Below are positions 1,460 to 47,719 of a stretch of 64,000 nt of DNA, piece after piece (positions within the stretch are counted from its first letter, which is position 1; each line of letters starts with the position of its first letter). The notes under the pieces are model-generated. The model had not been told where the DNA came from, searched no databases, and saw only the letters and a program-made list of their open reading frames with translations. Both the position numbers and the translations under genes were made by a program. This DNA is from Verrucomicrobiia bacterium (GTDB lineage: Bacteria; Verrucomicrobiota; Verrucomicrobiia; Opitutales; Cerasicoccaceae): assembly GCA_030432235.1 (NCBI GenBank), contig JAUIHT010000001.1, positions 310,001-374,000 on the forward strand, in the 5' to 3' direction.

Positions 1460-2479
1460 TCAGTAGCTCTCGTCGGTGAGCTCGACCTTACCGCGGAAGA
1501 TGTAATAGACGCAGGCGGTGTAGGTGATGACGATGGGCACGCCGATGATGGCCACGATGAGCATGAAGCCCAGGGTCTTGTCCGTGGAAGAGCCGTTGTA
1601 GATATTGAGGCTGTTCTGGATGTAGGGCGTCGAAAAGACCATGTTCGGGTAAACGCTGATGGCGAAGGTGGCCATGAGGAAGAGCATGGCGCCGCAGGAG
1701 CTGAGGAAGGCACGGAACTCCCGGCCCTTGTGGACCTCGCGCGGGATGTTGAAAACACACAGCAGGGCGATGGTGAAGGTGATGCCCAGCGGGACAAAGC
1801 GGTCAAGTGCGACATCGTGAATGTGCGGGCAAACCCAGGGAGTAGAAATGCCGAAGAGCAGGAAGCAGATGATGAAGGCGGGGATGGTGAACTTGACCCA
1901 GCGGCGCAGCTTGGCTTGTAGTTCGCCTTCGGTCTTCATGATCAGGTAGATGTTTCCGTGCATGGCAAAGAGCGCCAGCGTGGTGACGCCGAGGAAAAGC
2001 GAGTAGGGGTGCAGCAGGGTGAGGAAATTGCCGGTGTACTCGTGGTTGTGGTCCAGCGGAATGCCCCAGACGATGTTGCCCATGGCTACCCCGATGAGGA
2101 TGGCCGCGAGCACGCTTCCGAGGGCGAAGCCGATGTCCCACATATTGCGCCACCAGCGCATGGGCTGCTTGCTGCGGAATTCGATGGCGACGGCGCGGAA
2201 GATGAGCGCGAAGAGTAGCAGCATGAAAGCGTCATAGAAACCGGAAAAGACCGTCGCATAGACCTCGGGGAAGGCGGCGAAGAGCGCGCCCCCACCAGTC
2301 ACCAGCCAGACCTCATTGCCGTCCCACACCGGTCCGATCGCGTTGAGGAGCGTGCGGCGTTCTTTGTCGCCCTTGGTAAACAGATGCAGGGAACCGACCC
2401 CCAGATCAAAACCGTCCAGCATGGCATAGCCGGTGAAGAGCACGCCGACGAGGATGAACCAGATGGTGTTGAGATCCAT
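1460..2479 (-). CDS. cydB: Cytochrome bd ubiquinol oxidase subunit II
   Basis: CydB is the smaller membrane subunit of the bd-type quinol oxidase, which reduces oxygen to water with electrons from quinol. The 339-residue protein opens with LNTIWFILVGVLFTGYAMLDGFDLG, the typical CydB N-terminus, followed by GPVWDGNEVWLVTGGGALFAAFP, a hallmark of the family. About eight to nine hydrophobic segments are visible. It starts 7 bp after the cydA stop on the same strand, so the two genes form a cydAB operon. No cydX-like small ORF or cydDC assembly transporter is seen nearby. Length is slightly shorter than E. coli CydB (379 residues). Confidence 0.95.
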   Translation of the reverse strand: MDLNTIWFILVGVLFTGYAMLDGFDLGVGSLHLFTKGDKERRTLLNAIGPVWDGNEVWLVTGGGALFAAFPEVYATVFSGFYDAFMLLLFALIFRAVAIEFRSKQPMRWWRNMWDIGFALGSVLAAILIGVAMGNIVWGIPLDHNHEYTGNFLTLLHPYSLFLGVTTLALFAMHGNIYLIMKTEGELQAKLRRWVKFTIPAFIICFLLFGISTPWVCPHIHDVALDRFVPLGITFTIALLCVFNIPREVHKGREFRAFLSSCGAMLFLMATFAISVYPNMVFSTPYIQNSLNIYNGSSTDKTLGFMLIVAIIGVPIVITYTACVYYIFRGKVELTDESY

Positions 2480-2486
2480 AACGCTT

Positions 2487-4142
2487 TTATTCTTTTATCG
2501 CGGAAGTGGTCTGACGGCCGCCCTTGAGTGAAAGAATTTTCCATTTTTCGGGCAGCTCCTTGCCGCTGATGTCATCGCTGGGCCCGTGCTGGATTTTGCT
2601 GTTGAGCGTATAAATAAAGACGGCGAAGAGCAGCGCGTAGATGAGCATGAACATGATGAGCGAGAAGAGCACCTGCCCGGCTTTGACTGCCTCGGAGAGG
2701 GCTTCGCTAGTCTTGAGGATATTGTAAACGACCCAGGGCTGGCGGCCGATCTCGGCGGTGTACCAGCCGGCCTGATTGGCGATTTGCGGAGCCAGCACGG
2801 CAAAGACAAGCGCCCAGAGGAAGAGCTTCACCGGCTTGATTTTGCCGCCCAGCGTCCAATCTATATCCCAGAGCTTGCCGGTTTTCCAGAGGACAACCCC
2901 CAGGATGGCCAGGCCGATCATGACGCCCCACAGGGCGATCATGATATGATACGTCTGAAAGACGATGGGAACGTTGGGCCAATATTCGGGTCGGATTTTT
3001 TTCAGCTCCTCCGGTGTGGCGTCGGGGTGACGCTTGAGAAGAAATTCGTCCGAGGGGAGCTGGTTGAGACCCTTGACCTCGGTCTGGCTGGCGGCGACAG
3101 GATCAGTGAAGTCGCCCGAGACGAGGATACTGAGCAGGCCCTTGATTTTGAAGGCATTCTCGTTGATGCCGATGATGTTGCCCTCTTCGTCCTTTTTCCA
3201 GGTAACCCAACCGGCGACGCCCAGCGGGGCTTCCGTGGTAGACTCGGCCAGGCCTTCGATGGCGGCGAGCTTGACCGGCTGGTTGTCCGCCACGCCGCGT
3301 GCGGTGGAGTCCGCACTCCAGAGCTGCAACAGCAGGGCGATGGTGGCCACGGTCAGGCCGATCTTCATGCTGGCCTTGGCGAAGGGGATGTGCCGCTTGC
3401 GCAGCAGATAGTAGGCGCTGATGCTGATGACGACGAAGGTCCCCGTGATCCAGCAGGCGATGACGGTATGTGCCAGCCGGTCCAGCGTGGATGGGTTCAG
3501 GCACATGGCCCAGAAATCCGTCACCACGGCGCGGATGCTGTCGAGGTCCCCGGCCTGCACGATGTAATCCTCGGGCAGTGCGATTTCCTTGAGGGTAAAG
3601 GTGCCCGGCTCCAGGGCGGTGCTGTACGGGTGCTGAACGCCATCGGAGGTCACCTTGACCATCTTGGCCAAATGGAAGCCGGCCGGAGTTTGCATCCAGG
3701 AGTTGGCCACCAGAATCCAGATAGCGCTGAAGTGTGCGCCGAGGCTGACCATGCAGGTGGCGAAAAAGTGCGTCTTGGGCCCGACTTTGTTCCAGCCGAA
3801 GAGCAGGATGGCGAGGAATCCGGACTCCAGGAAAAAGGCGTAGATGCCCTCAATGGCCAGCGGCGACCCGAAGACGTCCCCGACAAAGCGCGAGTAGGTG
3901 GCCCAGTTGGTGCCGAACTCGAACTCCATCACGATACCGGTGGCTACCCCGATGGCGAAGATGAGCCCGAAGACCTTCGTCCAGAAGCGCGCCATGTTGT
4001 GGTAGAGCGGGTCGCGCGTCTTCAGCCACAGGGCCGACATGATGACGAGGTTCAGGCCGAGCCCGATCGTCATGGGCGGAAACAGAAAGTGGAACGCCAC
4101 GGTAAAGGCGAACTGGATGCGCGACAGTATTTCGACGTCCAT
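2487..4142 (-). CDS. cydA: Cytochrome bd ubiquinol oxidase subunit I
   Basis: CydA carries the quinol site and the three haems of the high-affinity terminal oxidase. The 551-residue protein begins with a canonical R.QFAFTVAFHFLFPPMTIGL segment; His18 corresponds to the axial haem d/b595 ligand (His19 in E. coli). The second His is in the LAHTV segment near residue 222, and the Met ligand lies in YHIMIALW. The conserved GWYTAEIGRQPWVVYN segment follows. The region between residues 250 and 390 is the periplasmic Q-loop. Start ATG 4142 fits the family N-terminus exactly. It is first in the operon with cydB. Confidence 0.96.
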   Translation of the reverse strand: MDVEILSRIQFAFTVAFHFLFPPMTIGLGLNLVIMSALWLKTRDPLYHNMARFWTKVFGLIFAIGVATGIVMEFEFGTNWATYSRFVGDVFGSPLAIEGIYAFFLESGFLAILLFGWNKVGPKTHFFATCMVSLGAHFSAIWILVANSWMQTPAGFHLAKMVKVTSDGVQHPYSTALEPGTFTLKEIALPEDYIVQAGDLDSIRAVVTDFWAMCLNPSTLDRLAHTVIACWITGTFVVISISAYYLLRKRHIPFAKASMKIGLTVATIALLLQLWSADSTARGVADNQPVKLAAIEGLAESTTEAPLGVAGWVTWKKDEEGNIIGINENAFKIKGLLSILVSGDFTDPVAASQTEVKGLNQLPSDEFLLKRHPDATPEELKKIRPEYWPNVPIVFQTYHIMIALWGVMIGLAILGVVLWKTGKLWDIDWTLGGKIKPVKLFLWALVFAVLAPQIANQAGWYTAEIGRQPWVVYNILKTSEALSEAVKAGQVLFSLIMFMLIYALLFAVFIYTLNSKIQHGPSDDISGKELPEKWKILSLKGGRQTTSAIKE

Positions 4143-4274
4143 GGCTAGTACGAGCAGTGAGTACGACCCACGTCATGGATTCAAGAGCATCCATATCCGC
4201 GCGCAAACAAAAAGCGGCCCCCGTTACCGAGTTTTTGCTTTCTTCAACGGTACATAAGACACCATGATGCGGTC

Positions 4275-5039
4275 ATGTCACTTGATTTGCCTGCCTTGCT
4301 TGAGCTCGCTTGCGATAGTGCCCGTGCCGCCGGGGATATACTGAAGGAGGGCGCGGGCCTGCGCCACGTCAACATGCAGGACGCCAAGGACGTCAAACTG
4401 AAGGCCGACGTGGAATCCGAAAAACTCATCCGCGCGCGGCTGGCCGGAACGGGCCTGCCGGTTATCGGTGAGGAGCAAGGAGGCGATCCCACGTTACCGG
4501 AGCGCGATGAGCCTTATTGGGTCATCGACCCGCTGGACGGCACCTACAATTACCTGCGTGGAGTGCCGCTTTGTTGTGTCTCCATCGGTCTGATGCGTGG
4601 CATGGAGCCCATTCTGGGCGTGATTCACGATTTCAATCTGGACGAAACCCTGTCCGCCCTGGCGACGGGGCCGCTACTACTCAACGGAGAGGAGCTGCGC
4701 CCGGAATGGCCGGAGCAAATCGACCACGCGGTGCTCCTGACCGGATTCCCGGCGGGTCGCGATTATTCCGGTCCGGCGTTGACGGCCTTCATCAGTGAGG
4801 TGCAGCGATTCAAAAAGATTCGCATGATGGGCAGTGCGGCCCTGGCCTTGGCCTGGGTGGCACGCGGGCTGGCCGATGCCTATTGTGAGGAGTCCATCCG
4901 CATTTGGGACATTGCCGGGGGGCTGGCTTTGGCCAAGGCAGCGGGCGTGGCAGTTCGCATTCGTCCCAGCTCGACACCGGAAAAGCCGTTTTCCTGCAAC
5001 ACCTGGGTGGCTACCAAAGAGGCGTGGCTCCCCAAGTAA
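4275..5039 (+). CDS. Inositol monophosphatase family protein
   Basis: The 254-residue protein has the Mg-dependent, Li-sensitive phosphatase signature: an early Glu pair (IGEEQ), then WVIDPLDGTYNY with Asp85, Asp88 and Thr90 as metal and phosphate ligands, and the C-terminal IWDIAGGLALAKAAG motif with the third metal-binding Asp. Family members dephosphorylate inositol-1-phosphate, 3'-phosphoadenosine 5'-phosphate (CysQ) or fructose-1,6-bisphosphate, or act like SuhB. CysQ would make sense in a genome with PAPS-dependent sulfotransferases such as those at 51 and 54 kb, but the substrate cannot be told from sequence. It is divergent from cydA with 132 bp between starts. Confidence 0.88.
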   Translation: MSLDLPALLELACDSARAAGDILKEGAGLRHVNMQDAKDVKLKADVESEKLIRARLAGTGLPVIGEEQGGDPTLPERDEPYWVIDPLDGTYNYLRGVPLCCVSIGLMRGMEPILGVIHDFNLDETLSALATGPLLLNGEELRPEWPEQIDHAVLLTGFPAGRDYSGPALTAFISEVQRFKKIRMMGSAALALAWVARGLADAYCEESIRIWDIAGGLALAKAAGVAVRIRPSSTPEKPFSCNTWVATKEAWLPK

Positions 5040-5136
5040 TCTTTGGAATCTCGCCAATAACAAAGCCGGGACAGTCACGATTGAACGTAACTACCCCGGC
5101 CAGTGCAGGAGTGAAAATGAAATGTCAGCGAGTGGC

Positions 5137-5922
5137 TTAGGCGGCGCGGGCCTTCGTCAAGGTATTGCGCAGGGCGCCTACTGCCTGGGTGTGAATCTGG
5201 CAGATGCGGGCTTCGGTCACACCGAAGACTTCGGCGATGTCGGCCAGGCGCATTTGCTCAAAGTAGTACATGGAGACGACCTGGCGCTGGCGCTCGGGCA
5301 ACTCGCCCACATGCTCGCCGAGTAAGCGGATGAGCTCGCGCTGCTCCATGCGCTCCTGGCAGGGGACATGGCGGTCGTCCGCGATGGCTTCGTGCAGGGA
5401 GCTTTCCTCGCCGTTGTTTTCGCAGACCGGGCAGTCCAGGGAAATCGTTACGCTGGGGCGGACGCTCTCGCGGAGCTTGTACAGCTCCGGCAGGCTCAGC
5501 CCGATGTGCTTGGCCAGCTCTTCGTCGCGCGGGGCGCGGCCCAGCTTCTGTTCGAGTTCTTCCACCGCACGGTTGAGTTCGCGCATCTTGCTGCGGCGGG
5601 TGCGGGGGAGGCTGTCCATCTTGCGCAGCTCGTCCAGAATGGCGCCGCGGATGCGGGTGGCTGCGTAGGAGCGGAAGGTGAGGGCCTGGCTGCGGTCGAA
5701 GCGCTTGACGGCGGCCATCAAGCCGGTCACGCCGATGCTGTGCAGCTCTTCCAGGTCCGCGTTGGCCGGCAGCTTGGCGCGCATGCGGTTGACCACGGAG
5801 CGGACCAGGGGATAGTGAGCCCGGATCAGGCTTTCCTCGTCTGTGGCATCGAGAAAGACAGGGATATTCCGCTTGCGGCGGCTTTCACCGGGAGTGGCAT
5901 CATAAAGTACGTCGATTTTCAT
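5137..5922 (-). CDS. FliA/WhiG-family RNA polymerase sigma factor
   Basis: The 261-residue sigma-70 family protein has region 2 (ADLEELHSIGVTGLMAAVKRFD; TFRSYAATRIRGAILDELR), region 3 (RAVEELEQKLGRAPRDEELAKHIGLS) and region 4 with a helix-turn-helix (LADIAEVFGVTEARICQIH). Length and the RIRGAILDELRKMD motif place it in the sigma-28 FliA/WhiG group, which in other bacteria drives flagellar, chemotaxis or developmental genes. No flagellar gene is visible in this window. An unusual CPVC motif lies in the linker between regions 3 and 4, with a further Cys about 20 residues on. Its regulon cannot be inferred here. Confidence 0.9.
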   Translation of the reverse strand: MKIDVLYDATPGESRRKRNIPVFLDATDEESLIRAHYPLVRSVVNRMRAKLPANADLEELHSIGVTGLMAAVKRFDRSQALTFRSYAATRIRGAILDELRKMDSLPRTRRSKMRELNRAVEELEQKLGRAPRDEELAKHIGLSLPELYKLRESVRPSVTISLDCPVCENNGEESSLHEAIADDRHVPCQERMEQRELIRLLGEHVGELPERQRQVVSMYYFEQMRLADIAEVFGVTEARICQIHTQAVGALRNTLTKARAA

Positions 5923-6182
5923 GGCTGTGGCTCAGTTGATTGTTTCTGCCCAACCTTATAGAAGCCTTCGTGCCAACTTTTTGTGGCGTTTTATAAGTCG
6001 CCTATTATCAAAGGTATAAAAAATACCGTTTATTGATTGCACGTTGAATCGACTAATTTACTTTAGGTATGAAAATCGACGGCATTGCATTTATATTGCA
6101 AACACAATGCAAAATCAAAGCATAAGCTTATAGATATCGGCACTCATGTACTTTACTTTAGGCAAAAACCCAGGAAAACGCC
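5923..6182. other. AT-rich intergenic region upstream of the sigma factor gene
   Basis: This 260-base stretch is clearly more AT-rich than its surroundings and has no convincing ORF. It holds the promoter region for the sigma-factor gene and the 3' end of the lipid-transport operon. Visible structure includes a direct repeat TTTACTTTAGG at 6057-6067 and 6152-6162, a short palindrome GGTATAAAAAATACC near 6013, and an imperfect inverted repeat around GCATTG/CAATGC near 6083-6112. No factor can be named for these. Confidence 0.5.
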
Positions 6183-6824
6183 CTAGTTCTTGGAAGGCAG
6201 CGGCAAGGCGGTGACTTCCTGGGCGATTTCCTTGGCCAGAGCGGCCACGGCGGTACTCATGGCGTCTGCAATGGCGGCATAATCGGATGCGCCGGTGGTG
6301 AGGGGCTGTGAGAATTGCGATTCCTTGACCAGATAGGTGGTCGTTTGCTTCGGATCCGTAATGCGGTACATCACCCGCAGGAGGACTTCGTCGCGGTAGG
6401 GCGCGGCCTCAAAGGCGAGCACGACGACGTGCACCACAAAGTCTTTGGGGAAGGGCTGCAGCCAAGGAAAGGCGGCCACTTCGTTGGAGCCGAGATAGAT
6501 GGCGACGTCTTCGCGCAGGACGCGGGTCACCCCGGCCTGGAAGGACTCACCCCAGCGGTCAAACTCCGACAGGGCGATTTGGTTGGCTGCCACAAGAGTG
6601 ACAATTTGCGGGCGATCGAGGAAATTCGGAATTTTAACCTGGCCGATGCCGACGGTGGCGTTGCCGGCCTGGGCGATGGGTTGGGTGTCCTCGGGCAGGC
6701 CGGTGAGGACGTAGAAGTTGGCGGGCTTGGACTTGCCGCCGATGCTGCAACCGCCCAGCAGGAGCGCCAGGCCGAGCATTGCCGGGAGGATGGTCGTGAA
6801 TTTAAAGGGCCTGTGTTGTCTCAT
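6183..6824 (-). CDS. ABC-type transport auxiliary lipoprotein (PqiC-like)
   Basis: The 213-residue protein has an N-terminal signal with lipobox LLGGC, so it should be lipidated and outer-membrane or periplasm anchored. After the Cys, ANFYVLTG, VGIGQVKIPNFLDRPQIV and RWGESFQAGVTRVLREDVA match the ABC_trans_aux/PqiC family (formerly DUF330). These lipoproteins accompany MCE-type lipid transporters and connect them to the outer membrane. It is the last gene of a four-gene minus-strand operon after the MCE protein (29 bp gap), which agrees with the role. In E. coli PqiC forms a ring on the PqiB tunnel; the same job here is inference. Confidence 0.85.
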   Translation of the reverse strand: MRQHRPFKFTTILPAMLGLALLLGGCSIGGKSKPANFYVLTGLPEDTQPIAQAGNATVGIGQVKIPNFLDRPQIVTLVAANQIALSEFDRWGESFQAGVTRVLREDVAIYLGSNEVAAFPWLQPFPKDFVVHVVVLAFEAAPYRDEVLLRVMYRITDPKQTTTYLVKESQFSQPLTTGASDYAAIADAMSTAVAALAKEIAQEVTALPLPSKN

Positions 6825-6853
6825 AGCATTTAGCGTTTAGCACTCAGCGTTTA

Positions 6854-7870
6854 TTAGTCGCTTTTTCCGGTAAGGAGGGCGCTGGGATTGCGCTCCAGAT
6901 AATCGGCCAGGATGCGAATGGAACGGGAAGCACTGGCGAATTCGCTCAGGGCGTTCTCCAGCTCGAAGCGCAAAGTGGAGTCCGGCTCGAGCATGGTGTT
7001 GGCGGTGGTGGCCAGGGCCTCAAACTCGGCCAGGGTCTCGCGGGCTTTGGCGGCGGTCAGGTTGACCTGCTCGACCAGTGGCTTTATTTCCCCGTCCACG
7101 CTGTCGAGCAGTTTGCGGGCGTCTTCCAGGGTAAGGTTGACGTTGCCGGCGAGGGCCTTCATCTGCGGGTCGGCCAGCAGCGCGTCCAACTCTTCGAGGG
7201 TGGAGACGGCCTTGTCGTTGATTTTCTTGAATTGGATGTCGCCCAGGCCTTTGTCCAGCTTGGTTAGGATGTCGTTGACCTTGCGTCCGATGGCGGCGAA
7301 GTCGATTTTGCTGATCTGGTCGACCATGCGGGAGACCTTTTTAATGACTTCGGTGAAACCGGTGGCGACGGTGGGGATCTCCAGGTACTCCTTTTGGCCG
7401 GTTTCCGGGTCGGGCTGCTGGACATAGTACACCGAAGTGGCGTCCGGATAGTAATCCAGTTCCACGAAAAGCATGCCAGTGACAAAACTGGCTTGCTGAA
7501 GCTGCGCGCGCAGCCCGAGCAATTCTACTTGGGTGCGAAAAATCTCCGGATCGCTTAGATCGACATCTTTGACGCCAAGGCTGTTCTGCAGGCGATCGAC
7601 ATCGATTTCGATAACCACGGGCACGTGCGGCGAGGTGTCGTCCTGATTGAAGCGGATCGATATCTTGGTAACCTGTCCGATACGCACGCCCTTGAACTTG
7701 ACCGGCGCGCCGACCTCGAGGCCGTTGATGGAATCTTCGAAATAGAGGATGAAAGACTCGGTTTTGCGGAAGAGCTGCCCGGAGCCGAAAATCATGATGG
7801 CCACCACGCCCAGGACGATGGCGCCGATGACAAAGATGCCGATGAAGGCGGGATTCGCTTTTTTACTCAT
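6854..7870 (-). CDS. MCE-domain lipid transport protein (MlaD-like)
   Basis: The 338-residue protein has one N-terminal membrane anchor (FIGIFVIGAIVLGVVAIMIFGS) and a single MCE domain (residues about 38-130, including INGLEVGAPVKFKGVRIGQV). A long helical C-terminal region (residues about 180-330) is probably a coiled coil. MCE proteins form hexameric rings that bind and pass phospholipids through the periplasm. It is longer than E. coli MlaD (183 residues), and the long helix could build a needle-like extension as in LetB/PqiB-type systems. Its place between an ATPase/permease pair and a PqiC-like lipoprotein supports this. The lipid and the direction of transport are not evident. Confidence 0.87.
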   Translation of the reverse strand: MSKKANPAFIGIFVIGAIVLGVVAIMIFGSGQLFRKTESFILYFEDSINGLEVGAPVKFKGVRIGQVTKISIRFNQDDTSPHVPVVIEIDVDRLQNSLGVKDVDLSDPEIFRTQVELLGLRAQLQQASFVTGMLFVELDYYPDATSVYYVQQPDPETGQKEYLEIPTVATGFTEVIKKVSRMVDQISKIDFAAIGRKVNDILTKLDKGLGDIQFKKINDKAVSTLEELDALLADPQMKALAGNVNLTLEDARKLLDSVDGEIKPLVEQVNLTAAKARETLAEFEALATTANTMLEPDSTLRFELENALSEFASASRSIRILADYLERNPSALLTGKSD

Positions 7871-40721: not shown

Positions 40722-41177
40722 GTGGCCGTTTGGTTATCCAGTAGGATTTATGTCAGTCAGGCTAAGCAAGCCTTTGGAGAGCTGGCGTTGATGGAACTGG
40801 CGGATTTATCTGCCCAGAAGAACTCAGAATTCGGGATAACGGGCTATCTGCTCTACCTCGACGGCCTTTTTGTTCAGTATTTCGAAGGCGACGAGTCTCC
40901 TGTTGAGCAGTTGATGCATAACATCCGGCACGATGGCCGTCATGAGGTTCTCCAGGAAGCCGGTGAGTCCAGACTGGTTGTCCGGCGGTTTCCTACGTGG
41001 TTCATGAGATGGCTGCATCAGGAAGAGCTGGCCCAGGTAAAACTCGCGCGGGATTTGGCCCTGCTGCTTCAGAGTCGCAAGCAGATGGAGAGTACGATTT
41101 GGGAAGCAAGGCTCTGGCTTACGGTTGAAAGGATCGTGGCCCTCGATCAAAAGTTAAAAAAGAGCAAAGATACGTAA
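40722..41177 (+). CDS. BLUF-domain blue-light photoreceptor
   Basis: The protein has 151 residues from GTG 40722. Residues about 7-95 form a BLUF domain: SRIYVSQA, NSEFGITGYLLYLDGLFVQYFEG and RRFPTWFMRW. The flavin-network residues are spaced as in AppA: Tyr10, Asn34 and Gln52 correspond to Tyr21, Asn45 and Gln63. The remaining 55 residues are a helical tail with no output domain (cyclase, EAL or similar), so it is a short BLUF protein that probably signals through a partner. It is followed by a 430-base gap; no partner gene is adjacent. Confidence 0.85.
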   Translation: MAVWLSSRIYVSQAKQAFGELALMELADLSAQKNSEFGITGYLLYLDGLFVQYFEGDESPVEQLMHNIRHDGRHEVLQEAGESRLVVRRFPTWFMRWLHQEELAQVKLARDLALLLQSRKQMESTIWEARLWLTVERIVALDQKLKKSKDT

Positions 41178-41430: not shown

Positions 41431-41478
41431 TTCCTATATCTAGGGTCTTTTTGCAAAAAAATACACTAGATGTAGTAG
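41431..41478 (+). promoter_or_regulatory. Pair of NrdR boxes upstream of nrdB
   Basis: Two 16-base palindromes fit the NrdR consensus ACACWATATATWGTGT: box A at 41431-41446 (core CTATATCTAG) and box B at 41463-41478 (core CTAGATGTAG). Their centres are exactly 32 bases apart, three helical turns, as expected for cooperative NrdR binding. A TTGACA at 41485-41490 just downstream may be the -35 of the nrdB promoter, with CATGCT 17 bases on as a weak -10. Confidence 0.75.
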
Positions 41479-41612: not shown

Positions 41613-42704
41613 ATGGAGGTCACCGAAATCAAGATCGGAAACAAGACGTTCACTTTGGACAAGGATAAGGCCGAGGAGGCCTATCGGGCCAAAATGATCA
41701 TCAACGGCCGCGAGACGATGTTCTTTAACATCCTGCCGCTCAAATACCAGTGGGCCTACGATCTCTACAAGACGATGAAGGCGAATCACTGGGAGCCTGA
41801 GGACGTCCCGATGCAGAAGGATGTCGAGCAGTGGCGCGACACAACCGATCAGATTACCGACATCGACCGCTGGATTATCAAGATGGCCATCGGGTACTTC
41901 TCCGCCGCCGAGGGCATCGTGGGTGACAACATCATCCATGTCGTGCGCGAGTTGGTGACCGCGCCGGAGCTGAAGCTGGCCCTGGGGCGTCACGCGCACG
42001 AGGAAAACATCCACGCGGACAGCCTCGTTTACATGATCTCCTCGCTCGGCATCAACCCGCACGAGTGCGAGGCGATGTTTACCGACGTCAAGACCATCGA
42101 CAAGAAGGCGCAGTTCGTCGTGCGTAATTCCCGCGGCCTGCGTCGCGACCTCGACTTGACCGACACCGCCAACAAGCAGGCGCTGACCAAAAACATTTTC
42201 CTCTTCGGCCAGGTGATGGAGGGGACTCAGTTCTACGGCCTCTTTGGCATGGTGCTGAGCCTTTACCGCCAGTCGAAGTTCCCGGGCATCGGCCAGATGT
42301 TCCGTTACACCCTCCGGGACGAGTCCAACCACATCGAGCTTTTCCGCAACCTGCTCATGGATCTGGTCGAGGAAAATCCCGACGTGTGGACCGCCGAGTT
42401 CAAGGAAGAGCTGCGCGCCACCATGAAGGAGGGCATCGAACTGGAAAAGGAATTTATCCGCGACTGCCTGCCGATCAACGCTCTCGGCCTCTCCCCGGAC
42501 GAGTTCGAGCAGTACATCGACTACATCGCCGACCGCCGCCTTGAGGGTTGCGGCCTGGCCACGCTCAATCAGGGCGTGCAAAATCCCTTCCCCTGGCTCT
42601 CCGAAATGATGGACATCAAGAAGGAAGCCAACTTCTTCGAACAGCGCGTCACCGAATACCAGAAGGCATCCGCCCTCGACGCCGTCGATGACGACGACCT
42701 CTAA
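41613..42704 (+). CDS. nrdB: Ribonucleotide reductase small subunit, class Ic-like
   Basis: The 363-residue R2 protein makes the radical that starts ribonucleotide reduction in R1. Metal ligands are Glu100, Glu131, His134, Glu203, Glu237 and His240 (motifs SAAEGIV, EENIHADS, MEGTQFY, DESNH). The position of the radical tyrosine (Tyr122 in E. coli) is Leu138, and the first ligand is Glu instead of Asp; both features and the spacing match the Chlamydia class Ic enzyme (Phe127, Glu89), which uses a Mn/Fe cofactor. The C-terminal acidic tail would bind R1. nrdA follows at 44453 after two opposite-strand genes, and both have NrdR-box pairs. Confidence 0.93.
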   Translation: MEVTEIKIGNKTFTLDKDKAEEAYRAKMIINGRETMFFNILPLKYQWAYDLYKTMKANHWEPEDVPMQKDVEQWRDTTDQITDIDRWIIKMAIGYFSAAEGIVGDNIIHVVRELVTAPELKLALGRHAHEENIHADSLVYMISSLGINPHECEAMFTDVKTIDKKAQFVVRNSRGLRRDLDLTDTANKQALTKNIFLFGQVMEGTQFYGLFGMVLSLYRQSKFPGIGQMFRYTLRDESNHIELFRNLLMDLVEENPDVWTAEFKEELRATMKEGIELEKEFIRDCLPINALGLSPDEFEQYIDYIADRRLEGCGLATLNQGVQNPFPWLSEMMDIKKEANFFEQRVTEYQKASALDAVDDDDL

Positions 42705-42908: not shown

Positions 42909-43565
42909 TCACGCGTTGCGCACGAGCCGGAGTTTCCAGGCGGCCGCGACGGTGATAAGGATCACGGCGGAGACGCCCATGGGGTAGGGGTGTGGCGCAA
43001 AGCGTTGCAGCAGTCCGCCGAGGAGCGCTCCGCTGAAATAGGCCAGCCAGCTCCACGCCGGGATCGAGCGATGCGGCGGCACTTTTTTTGCAGACGGGAC
43101 ACCCACCCAGCGACGGATGACCGTGACCAGTGTGTTGGTGACCACTACCGTGCTCACGCCCGTGACGCCGATCTGCTGAACAGCGCTGGCCTGCAAGCCC
43201 ATGGCGAAGGCCGTCAAAACAGGCGCATAGATTTCCGGCAAGCCGAAGAAGAGCGAGGCGGCTCCACCTAGCAACACGCAGCCGGAAATAAAAATCACGC
43301 GTCGGACAGCAGACGACCAGCCGTCGGCCGCCTCCCGCAGGATCCGACATCCGATGGCCGCACCCAGGCAGAAGGCGACGAGTACCAGCCCGGCCAGCCA
43401 GGCGCCTTCGATCTTTACCGTGGCCACGGCCAGCGCCAGCACGACCGAATTGCCCGTCATGTTGGCCGGAAAGACGCCGGCAGTCATGAACCCCGCGGCG
43501 TCGACGCAGCCCGCTCCCAGGCTGAGGGCTATGAGCAGGTGGTCGGACTGGAACCCGCGGGACAT
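42909..43565 (-). CDS. DUF1275 (YoaK-like) membrane protein
   Basis: The protein has 218 residues from ATG 43565. The conserved family opening is seen: LIALSLGAGCVDAAGFMTAGVFPANMTGNSVVLALA, followed by six hydrophobic segments. The pattern TGNSV...A at the first helix pair, then QIGVTGVSTVVVTNTL, marks the DUF1275/YoaK family. No activity is known for these small integral membrane proteins. It is 14 bp after the minus-strand hypothetical gene that starts at 44026, so they may be cotranscribed, and both lie between nrdB and nrdA on the opposite strand. Confidence 0.85.
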   Translation of the reverse strand: MSRGFQSDHLLIALSLGAGCVDAAGFMTAGVFPANMTGNSVVLALAVATVKIEGAWLAGLVLVAFCLGAAIGCRILREAADGWSSAVRRVIFISGCVLLGGAASLFFGLPEIYAPVLTAFAMGLQASAVQQIGVTGVSTVVVTNTLVTVIRRWVGVPSAKKVPPHRSIPAWSWLAYFSGALLGGLLQRFAPHPYPMGVSAVILITVAAAWKLRLVRNA

Positions 43566-43579
43566 GGGCTTACGTGGAA

Positions 43580-44026
43580 TTAGCGGATGGTGAGATCGTC
43601 CTCTTGGGACCATCCTTCAAGGTACACCGAGTCGGCGTCCGCATAAAGAAACTCGAAAAACGCTTCATCTCCATAGGGAATCAGATCTGCCTGGGCGGGC
43701 ATATCCTTGACCACCCAGACGAGGGCGACCTTTTCACCACCGATAATTTCCCGCACGCGTGCCACAAGATTTTCAAAGGCCTCGTGTGGCTTGGGATACA
43801 GCTGATAGTAGACGGCGTATTCCGAGAATGAGAGGTAGACAGATTCTTCGATGGAGCAGAACTCGATGACGCGCTCGTTATCGCGGTTCTTTATTTCAAA
43901 TCCGATAAACGGGTCTCCCTCTTCGTCGGTTTCTTCCGAGAGGACCAGCATTTCAAAGATATCCGCATGCTCCTGTTTTATGTACTCGTAAAGTCGTGTC
44001 CCGATGACATCGTCCTCGATTTCCAT
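43580..44026 (-). CDS. Acidic hypothetical protein
   Basis: The 148-residue soluble protein is strongly acidic with Glu/Asp-rich stretches (EEDVIGT..., ETDEEGDP, GWSQEDDL). Its alternating beta and helix pattern (VALVWVVKDM; AYYQLYPKPHEAFENLVARVREII) suggests a small alpha/beta fold. No signal peptide or catalytic motif is seen. I do not recognise the family. Start ATG 44026 leaves about 130 bases to the NrdR-box pair of the divergent nrdA. Confidence 0.6.
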   Translation of the reverse strand: MEIEDDVIGTRLYEYIKQEHADIFEMLVLSEETDEEGDPFIGFEIKNRDNERVIEFCSIEESVYLSFSEYAVYYQLYPKPHEAFENLVARVREIIGGEKVALVWVVKDMPAQADLIPYGDEAFFEFLYADADSVYLEGWSQEDDLTIR

Positions 44027-44174: not shown

Positions 44175-44222
44175 TTACTAGATATTGTGTTGAGCGACTA
44201 TCTTGGACACAAGATATAGTAA
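44175..44222 (+). promoter_or_regulatory. Pair of NrdR boxes upstream of nrdA
   Basis: Box A at 44175-44190 (TTACTAGATATTGTGT) and box B at 44207-44222 (ACACAAGATATAGTAA) both match the NrdR-box consensus, and their centres are exactly 32 bases apart, the same spacing as at nrdB. TTGACA at 44162-44167 lies directly upstream and may be a -35 hexamer overlapped by box A. The leader to ATG 44453 is about 230 bases. Confidence 0.8.
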
Positions 44223-44452: not shown

Positions 44453-47400
44453 ATGATCCGTAAGAATTTTTTCGATGAAGACCTCGCCCTGAAGCGCTTC
44501 GTGGCCACTCCGGCCGAGCAGAAGCCGCGCTTCAACTGGCGCGAGGTGGTGAGCGAAGACCAATTTTCGCAGCCGGAAATCAGCATCGAAATCCAGGGCA
44601 TCGCCAAGGCCTTCGATCTGGCCGAAGTCGCCGATATGATCGGCGCCGCGTTGACCGACCTGCTCCTTTCCCGTGACGAGAGTGACATCTACAACGACAA
44701 GAACCGTCAGTTTGTGGCCATTGTGGCCGAGCGCGTGGCCGCGCACATCGCCCGTCAGATTGAAGCCGATGCCGATTTCACCCTCAGCCAGTCCGACCTC
44801 AACCTCGTCATCGAGCGCGTGTTGGTCGAACTGGACGCCTACGATGTGGCCAAGAGCCTCATCGTGCGCCAGGCCCTCAACGGCGGCAGCAAAGGCGTCG
44901 AAGAGGAAGCCAAGGAGGTCGAGCCGCTCAATGTGCGCCTCATCCGCCGCAACCGGCAGGTGGTACCCTGGGACCAGAACAAGGTCGAGGTGGCCATCCG
45001 CAAAGCATTTCTTTCGCTACATCTGGATGCTACACCCGCGGTCGCGGTGGCTCAGGCCGTGACCGAGCGTGTGCGCCAGATGGGCGAAGCCTTTGTTCAT
45101 ATCGAAACCGTGCAGGACCTCGTTCAGGAGGAGTTGATGAAAGCCGGGCAGTTCAAGGCCGCCGAGGCTTACATCCTCTACCGCGCGCATCGTCGTTTAC
45201 GGCGCGATCAGGAAGCCGACGAAGTCATCGAGGAGGACAGCCGCCAGGACGCCATGATCATGATCAAGGCGGCCGACGGCTCCACCGAGTTCTGGAATGC
45301 CGACGAACTGCGCAAGCGCATCGACTTCGCCAGCATCGGCCTCGACCTGTGCTTGTCCAAGGAGCAGATCGAAACCGAGCTGCGCCGCTCCCTCTATGCG
45401 GAAATGACCCGCGAGGACCTGCGGAAGACCATCATCCTCAACTCCAAGAGCCTGATCGAGAAGGACGCCGACTTCGCCAAGTTCGCCGGCCGCATCCTCG
45501 TGTCCTATATCTACGAGGAAGTCCTCGGCTGGGACATCGTCTCCGACGGCATCGAAGGTCTCAAGGAAGCCCATCGCGTCTATTTCAAGAAGTACCTCAA
45601 GCGTGGCGTGGCTATTGAGCGCCTCGACAAGAAGCTGCTCGGTTACGATCTGGACCGCCTGGCCGATGCTCTCGACCCCTCCGCGGATCTGGATTTCGAC
45701 TACCTCGGCATCTCCACCCTGTACGACCGCTACCTCATCGTCGACAAGACGGTGAAGCCGGCCCGCCGTCTGGAAACGCCGCAGCTCTTCTGGATGCGTG
45801 TGTCGATGGGCCTCTTCCATCAGGAAAAGGAAGACCGCGAAGGCTGGGTTATCTCCCTGTACAATCTCTACAAGAGCCGCCGTTTCTGTTCCTCCACGCC
45901 GACGCTCTTTAACTCCGGCACCCTGCACAGCCAGCTTTCCAGCTGCTACCTGTATCAGGTGGACGACTCCATCGAGTCGATCATGAACCGCGGCATCGCC
46001 GAAAACGCCTTCCTCTCGAAGTGGGCCGGCGGCCTTGGCGGCTCCTGGACCTCCGTCCGCGGCACCGGCAGCTACATCAAGGGCACCAACGGCGAGTCCC
46101 AGGGCGTCATCCCCTTCCTCAAGCTGCATAACGACCAGCTCGTGGCCGTTAACCAGGGCGGCAAGCGTCGCGGTTCCGGCTGTGCCTATCTGGAAACCTG
46201 GCACAACGACATCATGGACTTCCTCGAGTTGCGCCGCAACACCGGGGATGACCGTCGCCGCACCCACGACATGAACACGGCCAACTGGATTCCTGACCTG
46301 TTCATGAAGCGCATGGAAAACCGCGAGGACTGGACCCTCTTCCGCTCCAATGAAGCGCCCGACCTGCACGAGTCCTACGGCCAGGCCTTTGAGGAAAAGT
46401 ACCTCGCTTACGAAGCCAAAGTCGAAGCCGGTCAGATGTGGGGCCAGAAAGTGAAGGCCATTGACCTGTGGAAGCAGATGCTCCGCATGCTCTTCGAGAC
46501 CGGTCACCCCTGGATCACTTTCAAGGACCCCTGTAACGTCCGCAGCCCGCAGGACCACGCTGGCGTCATTCACAGTTCCAACCTCTGCACCGAGATCACG
46601 CTCAATACTGGCGCCGACGAGACCGCCGTGTGCAACCTTGGCTCCGTTGTGCTCGACACCCACGTCAAGAGCGACGGCACCCTCGACCTGGAGATGCTCC
46701 GTGAAACCGTCCGCATCGCCGTGCGCGCGCTGGACAACGTCATCGACATCAACTTCTACCCGACCGGCCCGGCCAAGACCGCCAACAGCCGCCACCGCCC
46801 CATCGGGCTCGGCGTGATGGGCGTGCACAACGCCCTGTACAAGAAGGACGTTAACTTCGCCAGCGACGCCGCGGTGGAGTTCAACGACGAGTTCATGGAA
46901 GCCATCGCTTACTACGCCTACGAGGCCTCCAGCGACCTGGCCGCTGAACGCGAGCCCTACAGCAGCTTCAAAGGCTCCAAGTGGGACCGAGGCATGCTGC
47001 CGCTCGACACCCTCGACCTGCTGGAAAAAGAGCGCGGCCAAACCATCGAGGTACCCCGCACCAGTCGCATGGACTGGGATTCCCTGCGCGGCAAAATCAA
47101 GAAGCAGGGCATGCGCAACAGTAACGTCCTGGCCATCGCGCCCACGGCAACTATCTCGAACATCATGGGCACCAGCCCCTGTATCGAGCCCTACTACAAG
47201 AACCTCTACGTTAAGAGCAACCTCGGCGGCGAGTTCATCATCCTCAACGCTAACCTCGTGCGCGACCTGAAGAAACTCGGTCTGTGGGGCCAGGAAATGG
47301 TCGACCAGCTCAAGTACTTCGACGGGGAGCTCGACAGCATCGAGGAAATCCCGGATGACCTGAAGGAAAAGTACAGCACCTCCTTCGGCATCGACTACAA

Positions 47401-47719
47401 CTGGCTGGTAGAGGCCGCCGCCCGTCGCCAGAAGTGGATCGATCAGTCCCAGAGCGTCAACCTCTTCCTGGTCAAGCCGGACCTCAAGGTGCTCTCGCAC
47501 ATGTACCGCGCCGCCTGGCGCAAGGGCCTCAAGACCACTTACTACCTGCGCACACAGCAGGCCTCCAACGTTGAAAAGAGCACCACCACGCAGAAGAAAG
47601 AGCTGCGCGGGCTGGTGGCCGGCGGTGAAGCGCCCAAGAAGGAATACACCGCCGAGGAAAAGATGGCCTGCAGCATTGAGGCTATGCGCAACGGTGAAGA
47701 ATGCGAGGCTTGCCAGTAG
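44453..47719 (+). CDS. nrdA: Ribonucleotide reductase large subunit with repeated ATP-cones
   Basis: The 1088-residue R1 is much longer than E. coli NrdA (761). The extra N-terminal 370 residues hold ATP-cone units: one at about 159-250 (LNVRLIRRNRQVVPWDQNK...), one at about 268-360 (MIKAADGSTEFWNADELRKR...), and before them a less conserved cone-like stretch. Catalytic features follow: LSSCYLYQ (first active Cys), NLCTEITLNTGADETAVCNLGSV (thiyl Cys and partner), TTYYLRTQQAS (radical-path Tyr pair), and the C-terminal redox pair CEAC. Repeated cones are known from Chlamydia NrdA and add layered dATP control. It pairs with the class Ic-like nrdB. Confidence 0.95.
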   Translation: MIRKNFFDEDLALKRFVATPAEQKPRFNWREVVSEDQFSQPEISIEIQGIAKAFDLAEVADMIGAALTDLLLSRDESDIYNDKNRQFVAIVAERVAAHIARQIEADADFTLSQSDLNLVIERVLVELDAYDVAKSLIVRQALNGGSKGVEEEAKEVEPLNVRLIRRNRQVVPWDQNKVEVAIRKAFLSLHLDATPAVAVAQAVTERVRQMGEAFVHIETVQDLVQEELMKAGQFKAAEAYILYRAHRRLRRDQEADEVIEEDSRQDAMIMIKAADGSTEFWNADELRKRIDFASIGLDLCLSKEQIETELRRSLYAEMTREDLRKTIILNSKSLIEKDADFAKFAGRILVSYIYEEVLGWDIVSDGIEGLKEAHRVYFKKYLKRGVAIERLDKKLLGYDLDRLADALDPSADLDFDYLGISTLYDRYLIVDKTVKPARRLETPQLFWMRVSMGLFHQEKEDREGWVISLYNLYKSRRFCSSTPTLFNSGTLHSQLSSCYLYQVDDSIESIMNRGIAENAFLSKWAGGLGGSWTSVRGTGSYIKGTNGESQGVIPFLKLHNDQLVAVNQGGKRRGSGCAYLETWHNDIMDFLELRRNTGDDRRRTHDMNTANWIPDLFMKRMENREDWTLFRSNEAPDLHESYGQAFEEKYLAYEAKVEAGQMWGQKVKAIDLWKQMLRMLFETGHPWITFKDPCNVRSPQDHAGVIHSSNLCTEITLNTGADETAVCNLGSVVLDTHVKSDGTLDLEMLRETVRIAVRALDNVIDINFYPTGPAKTANSRHRPIGLGVMGVHNALYKKDVNFASDAAVEFNDEFMEAIAYYAYEASSDLAAEREPYSSFKGSKWDRGMLPLDTLDLLEKERGQTIEVPRTSRMDWDSLRGKIKKQGMRNSNVLAIAPTATISNIMGTSPCIEPYYKNLYVKSNLGGEFIILNANLVRDLKKLGLWGQEMVDQLKYFDGELDSIEEIPDDLKEKYSTSFGIDYNWLVEAAARRQKWIDQSQSVNLFLVKPDLKVLSHMYRAAWRKGLKTTYYLRTQQASNVEKSTTTQKKELRGLVAGGEAPKKEYTAEEKMACSIEAMRNGEECEACQ

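Follow-up and report, generated by a model that had tools for sequence, protein, structure and literature searches.

A leucine-containing class Ic-type R2 in Verrucomicrobiota, predicted to use a tyrosine-free Mn/Fe-type metal oxidant

Which oxidant would be used by the R2 subunit of an aerobic class I ribonucleotide reductase (RNR) that has leucine at the position of the radical tyrosine? We address this question for nrdB, a gene in a 64,000-nucleotide stretch of DNA from a Verrucomicrobiia bacterium (the window, that is, the whole stretch that was analysed). An earlier note on this DNA had described the gene product as a class Ic-like R2 that lacks the radical tyrosine; the sequence, the predicted fold, and the pairing of glutamate at the first metal ligand with residues other than tyrosine at the radical site all agree with this description, and we consider it highly probable that nrdB encodes a class Ic-type R2 with a tyrosine-free metal oxidant of the Mn/Fe type.

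The nrdB reading frame (41613–42704, + strand) is uninterrupted, starts with ATG, and encodes 363 residues; its assignment draws on this frame, Pfam and NCBIfam searches, alignment, an AlphaFold model, and fold matches. The Pfam search places the protein in the R2 family (PF00268, 1.5e-65), and the NCBIfam RNR model NF005550 is matched with 337 bits, above its cut-off and against 51 bits for the R2lox models. The weak R2lox matches and the missing radical tyrosine might point to a degenerate or non-RNR protein, that is, an R2lox-like oxidase or an inactive paralogue; we regard this as extremely improbable, given the difference in scores, the fixed ligand and pathway residues, the presence of the C-terminal Tyr349 and tail, the nearby R1 partner, and the search of the genome, in which no second R2 gene was found.

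The nearest solved relatives by sequence (phmmer, PDB) are the Chlamydia trachomatis R2 entries (E ~5e-75) and 6Y2N. When the window R2 is aligned with C. trachomatis R2 (1SYY), the six metal ligands Glu100, Glu131, His134, Glu203, Glu237, and His240 correspond to Glu89, Glu120, His123, Glu193, Glu227, and His230; the parallel ligand spacing given in the earlier note is thus correct at all six positions. Also as claimed there, Glu100 (codon 41910–41912), aligned with Glu89, takes the place of the Asp ligand of classical (class Ia/Ib) R2s, and Leu138 (codon CTC, 42024–42026) is the unambiguous counterpart of Phe127, at the radical-tyrosine position; a redox-inert residue (Phe, Leu, Val, or Ile) for the radical tyrosine and Glu for Asp at the first ligand are both features of class Ic. 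The remaining ligands lie in the E131-x-x-H134 motif (42003–42014), in the segment that encodes Glu203 and Thr205 (42219–42227), and in the segment that encodes Tyr232, Thr233, Asp236, Glu237, and His240 (42306–42332), all on the + strand. The radical-transfer pathway is likewise shared: Trp60, Tyr232, Asp236, and the C-terminal Tyr349 (42657–42659, + strand) align with Trp51, Tyr222, Asp226, and Tyr338.

The earlier note had proposed alignment with Chlamydia and other R2s as the check on its claim; this places Leu at the radical site and no tyrosine can be placed there, that is, shifting any tyrosine into the site breaks the invariant E-x-x-H helix in the alignment to 1SYY. The tyrosine nearest to the site is Tyr140, two residues beyond Leu138; it is retained in all of 111 close homologues, so a stable radical on this or another tyrosine has to be weighed. 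However, Tyr140 pairs with Tyr129 of the C. trachomatis enzyme, which is nevertheless the prototype of the metal-centred subclass Ic (PMC8463856), and the residue is His in tandem paralogues and in a divergent Leu-type R2 (L117). We judge a radical on another tyrosine to be very unlikely; a metal-centred oxidant is very likely.

The AlphaFold model of the window R2 was built on an alignment of 38 sequences (pLDDT 88.4, pTM 0.86); an earlier model from 14 near-identical sequences was set aside (pLDDT 60). The top PDB matches of the model (Foldseek, VIA) are all C. trachomatis NrdB structures, Mn/Fe forms included (VIA Z 43.6–45.0 over 316–329 residues, rmsd 2.2–3.1), and 6Y2N comes next (Z 43.0, rmsd 1.3 over 306 residues); the Tyr-type R2s have Z values of 38 or less and the class Id structures ~34. 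These matches of a predicted fold support the residue alignment and are silent on metals.

How widespread is the leucine? A scan of GTDB contigs together with a phylum search yielded 111 close ORFs (at least 70% identity), a few of which are the window gene over again. Their sources are Verrucomicrobiota and two bins labelled Armatimonadetes/Fimbriimonadaceae (Armatimonadota), with Leu-type R2s outside Verrucomicrobiota sampled only by chance. Leu138 and the ligand and pathway residues are identical in all 111, so the window protein is under strong constraint. In an aligned sample, the relatives from Cerasicoccus, Haloferula, Luteolibacter, Opitutae, and Fimbriimonadaceae are 76–83% identical to the window R2 and match it at every site checked, with no notable difference; the window R2 is an ordinary member of this Leu-type clade. 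The phylum also contains Phe-type R2s (~41% identity) and Tyr-type R2s. Across 47 divergent R2s and 38 rows that include viral contigs, Glu at the first ligand is invariably paired with a radical-site Leu, Phe, or Val, and Asp with Tyr (the counts are of sequences, not of independent events). No Leu-type R2 turned up when viral contigs were searched with the window protein. A large viral R2 clade of 80 IMG/VR loci (L204–L283) has Glu at the first ligand, and its radical-site residue is Val in 69 loci and Ile in 11.

Two genomes of the window's order (G116 and G208) each contain two tandem R2 genes (L115, + strand, ~5131–7530; L116, − strand, ~1500–6423). One copy is of the ordinary Leu type (67–69% identity) and the other has diverged (51–52%); the diverged copy keeps the six ligands and Leu138, with His for Tyr140 and Asn for Tyr232, and is possibly a heterodimer partner or a second R2.

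The earlier note had presented Leu, rather than the Phe of Chlamydia, as a useful variant of the subclass. The substitution is correct but it is not new, because Leu (also Ile and Val) is already recorded in R2c proteins, in a passage of PMC3824934 that cites Hogbom 2010, and 'phenylalanine or leucine' is the reference state of subclass Ic in a 2026 preprint (PMC12918982); nor is it a peculiarity of the window protein, given its fixation in the close homologues. Phe or Leu is also noted for class O (PMC9531940), and redox-inert residues are reported for many class Ic-like R2s of the NrdAz and NrdAq groups (PMC9669993). The preprint further describes Ile/Val 'subclass Ic-like' R2s in virioplankton (PMC12918982), the group to which our 80-locus viral clade corresponds; these share with the window R2 the Glu at the first ligand, an aliphatic residue at the radical site, and Thr at positions 205 and 233, but they have Val or Ile instead of Leu, are ~37% identical to it, and are phage-borne.

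In the trees, the Leu-type R2s form one clade (support 99/97), and free trees set this clade apart from the Phe types. The Phe types are scattered; the alphaproteobacterial ones (with 6Y2N) are located among gammaproteobacterial Tyr types. A single clade of all R2s with Glu and a non-Tyr residue is not recovered and is not rejected (AU p 0.19 and 0.14 in two tests); similarly, the viral Val/Ile R2s are separate from the Leu type in the tree, with a joint clade not rejected (AU p 0.17). Given these AU results, we make no claim that the Leu clade lost the tyrosine independently.

The C. trachomatis R2 (NrdB; 1SYY, 4M1I, 4D8G) is ~37% identical to the window R2 and shares with it the six ligands, including Glu at the first position, a residue other than Tyr at the radical position, the W/Y/D/Y pathway, and the fold; the two differ at several positions close to the ligands in sequence. 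In addition to Leu138 for Phe127, the window R2 has Thr205, Gln206, and Thr233 where the Chlamydia protein has Ile195, Phe196, and Ile223, and His127, His129, and Asn132 where it has Gln116, Phe118, and Ala121. Throughout the alignment, Leu-type R2s have Thr, Gln, and Thr at positions 205, 206, and 233, whereas Phe types have Ile/Met/Val, Phe/Trp, and Ile; because hydrophobic residues are replaced at these three positions, the pocket of the Leu type differs from that of Chlamydia. An Ile (yeast residue 269) and two Phe residues line the tyrosyl-radical pocket (PMC3824934); Thr233, three residues ahead of the conserved Asp, would be the counterpart of yeast Ile 269, as judged from its motif position.

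Thr205 and Thr233 also occur in the viral Val/Ile R2s (80 of 80 loci), so an aliphatic radical-site residue accompanies the Thr pair in both groups; the apparent coupling comes from one or two lineages at most, and we found no description of it in the literature. The Leu-type R2s, together with the viral Val/Ile R2s, might on this basis be a distinct cofactor variety in which the aliphatic residue and the Thr pair reshape the pocket and the tyrosine was possibly lost independently, a reading to which we give a small but real chance; if it is true, metal selection, hydration, or redox tuning in Leu-type R2s would differ from that in Chlamydia R2.

These substitutions also bear on the identity of the metals. 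If the metal-centred oxidant is not Mn/Fe, the Glu-rich site would hold a dimanganese centre like that of class Id or some other dimetal state. Class Id likewise has Glu at the first ligand (PMC8463856), the replacements at positions 205, 206, and 233 distinguish the site from that of Chlamydia, and neither sequence nor structure allows the metals to be assigned a priori (PMC4118035), which favours this option; yet class Id retains its Tyr, in a Tyr/Glu pairing, unlike the window R2 with Leu138, and in sequence and fold the window R2 is much nearer to the C. trachomatis R2 (Z 45) than to the class Id structures. We give a non-Mn/Fe oxidant a slim chance. Since sequence cannot fix the metals (PMC4118035), the Mn/Fe cofactor specifically is what we infer, fairly, by homology to the Chlamydia enzyme. 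The six residues His127, His129, Asn132, Thr205, Gln206, and Thr233 are near the ligands in sequence and unlike those of the Phe type, and they could shift the choice of metal. We found no metal, EPR, activity, or other biochemical data for a Leu-type R2 in the literature.

With an Mn/Fe cofactor, a Mn(II)/Fe(II) centre would react with O2 (or H2O2) to form Mn(IV)/Fe(III). The Mn(IV) itself, with no tyrosyl radical, would then withdraw an electron via Trp60/Asp236/Tyr349 and the Tyr dyad of R1, and this transfer would generate the thiyl radical in the R1 active site; Leu138, like Phe127 in Chlamydia, would fill the radical pocket without taking part in redox chemistry. A tyrosine-free R2 with a predicted metal oxidant that is fixed across a large clade of free-living Verrucomicrobiota means that such R2s reach beyond the Chlamydia pathogens on which current enzymology is based, and comparison with the Leu type could show how the radical pocket tunes an oxidant of this kind.

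The R1 partner is encoded downstream of nrdB on the same strand. This gene, nrdA (44453–47719, + strand), encodes a complete class I R1 of 1088 residues with one clear ATP-cone (164–248), the Tyr dyad (YYLRT, 1030–1031), and a C-terminal CEAC tail. Two minus-strand genes, a DUF1275 gene (42909–43613) and an ORF (43580–44026), are located between nrdB and nrdA. Of 80 loci from relatives, 57 also have the R1 gene downstream in the same orientation, and contig ends truncate many of the others.

Both genes are preceded by pairs of sites that resemble NrdR boxes, as scored against the box consensus. The pair 5' of nrdB (41431–41478; sites at 41431–41446 and 41463–41478) and the pair 5' of nrdA (44175–44222; sites at 44175–44190 and 44207–44222), both on the + strand with starts 32 bp apart, score 23 and 24 of 32, compared with at most 18 elsewhere on the + strand of the window; the upstream regions of the relatives also outscore their reversed strings. 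An nrdR gene is located elsewhere in the same genome. From these predicted sites, nrdB and nrdA are probably both under NrdR control and, though split by the two minus-strand genes, appear to be co-regulated.

The same genome encodes a second large subunit (C37:286944–288617), which we read from its sequence as class II, and a class III NrdD (C42:158844–160562); with this reading, three RNR classes coexist in the genome, and the class II and class III enzymes would serve other oxygen conditions. Directly upstream of nrdB (40722–41177) is a gene for a protein with a BLUF blue-light sensor domain (PF04940, 7.9e-22).
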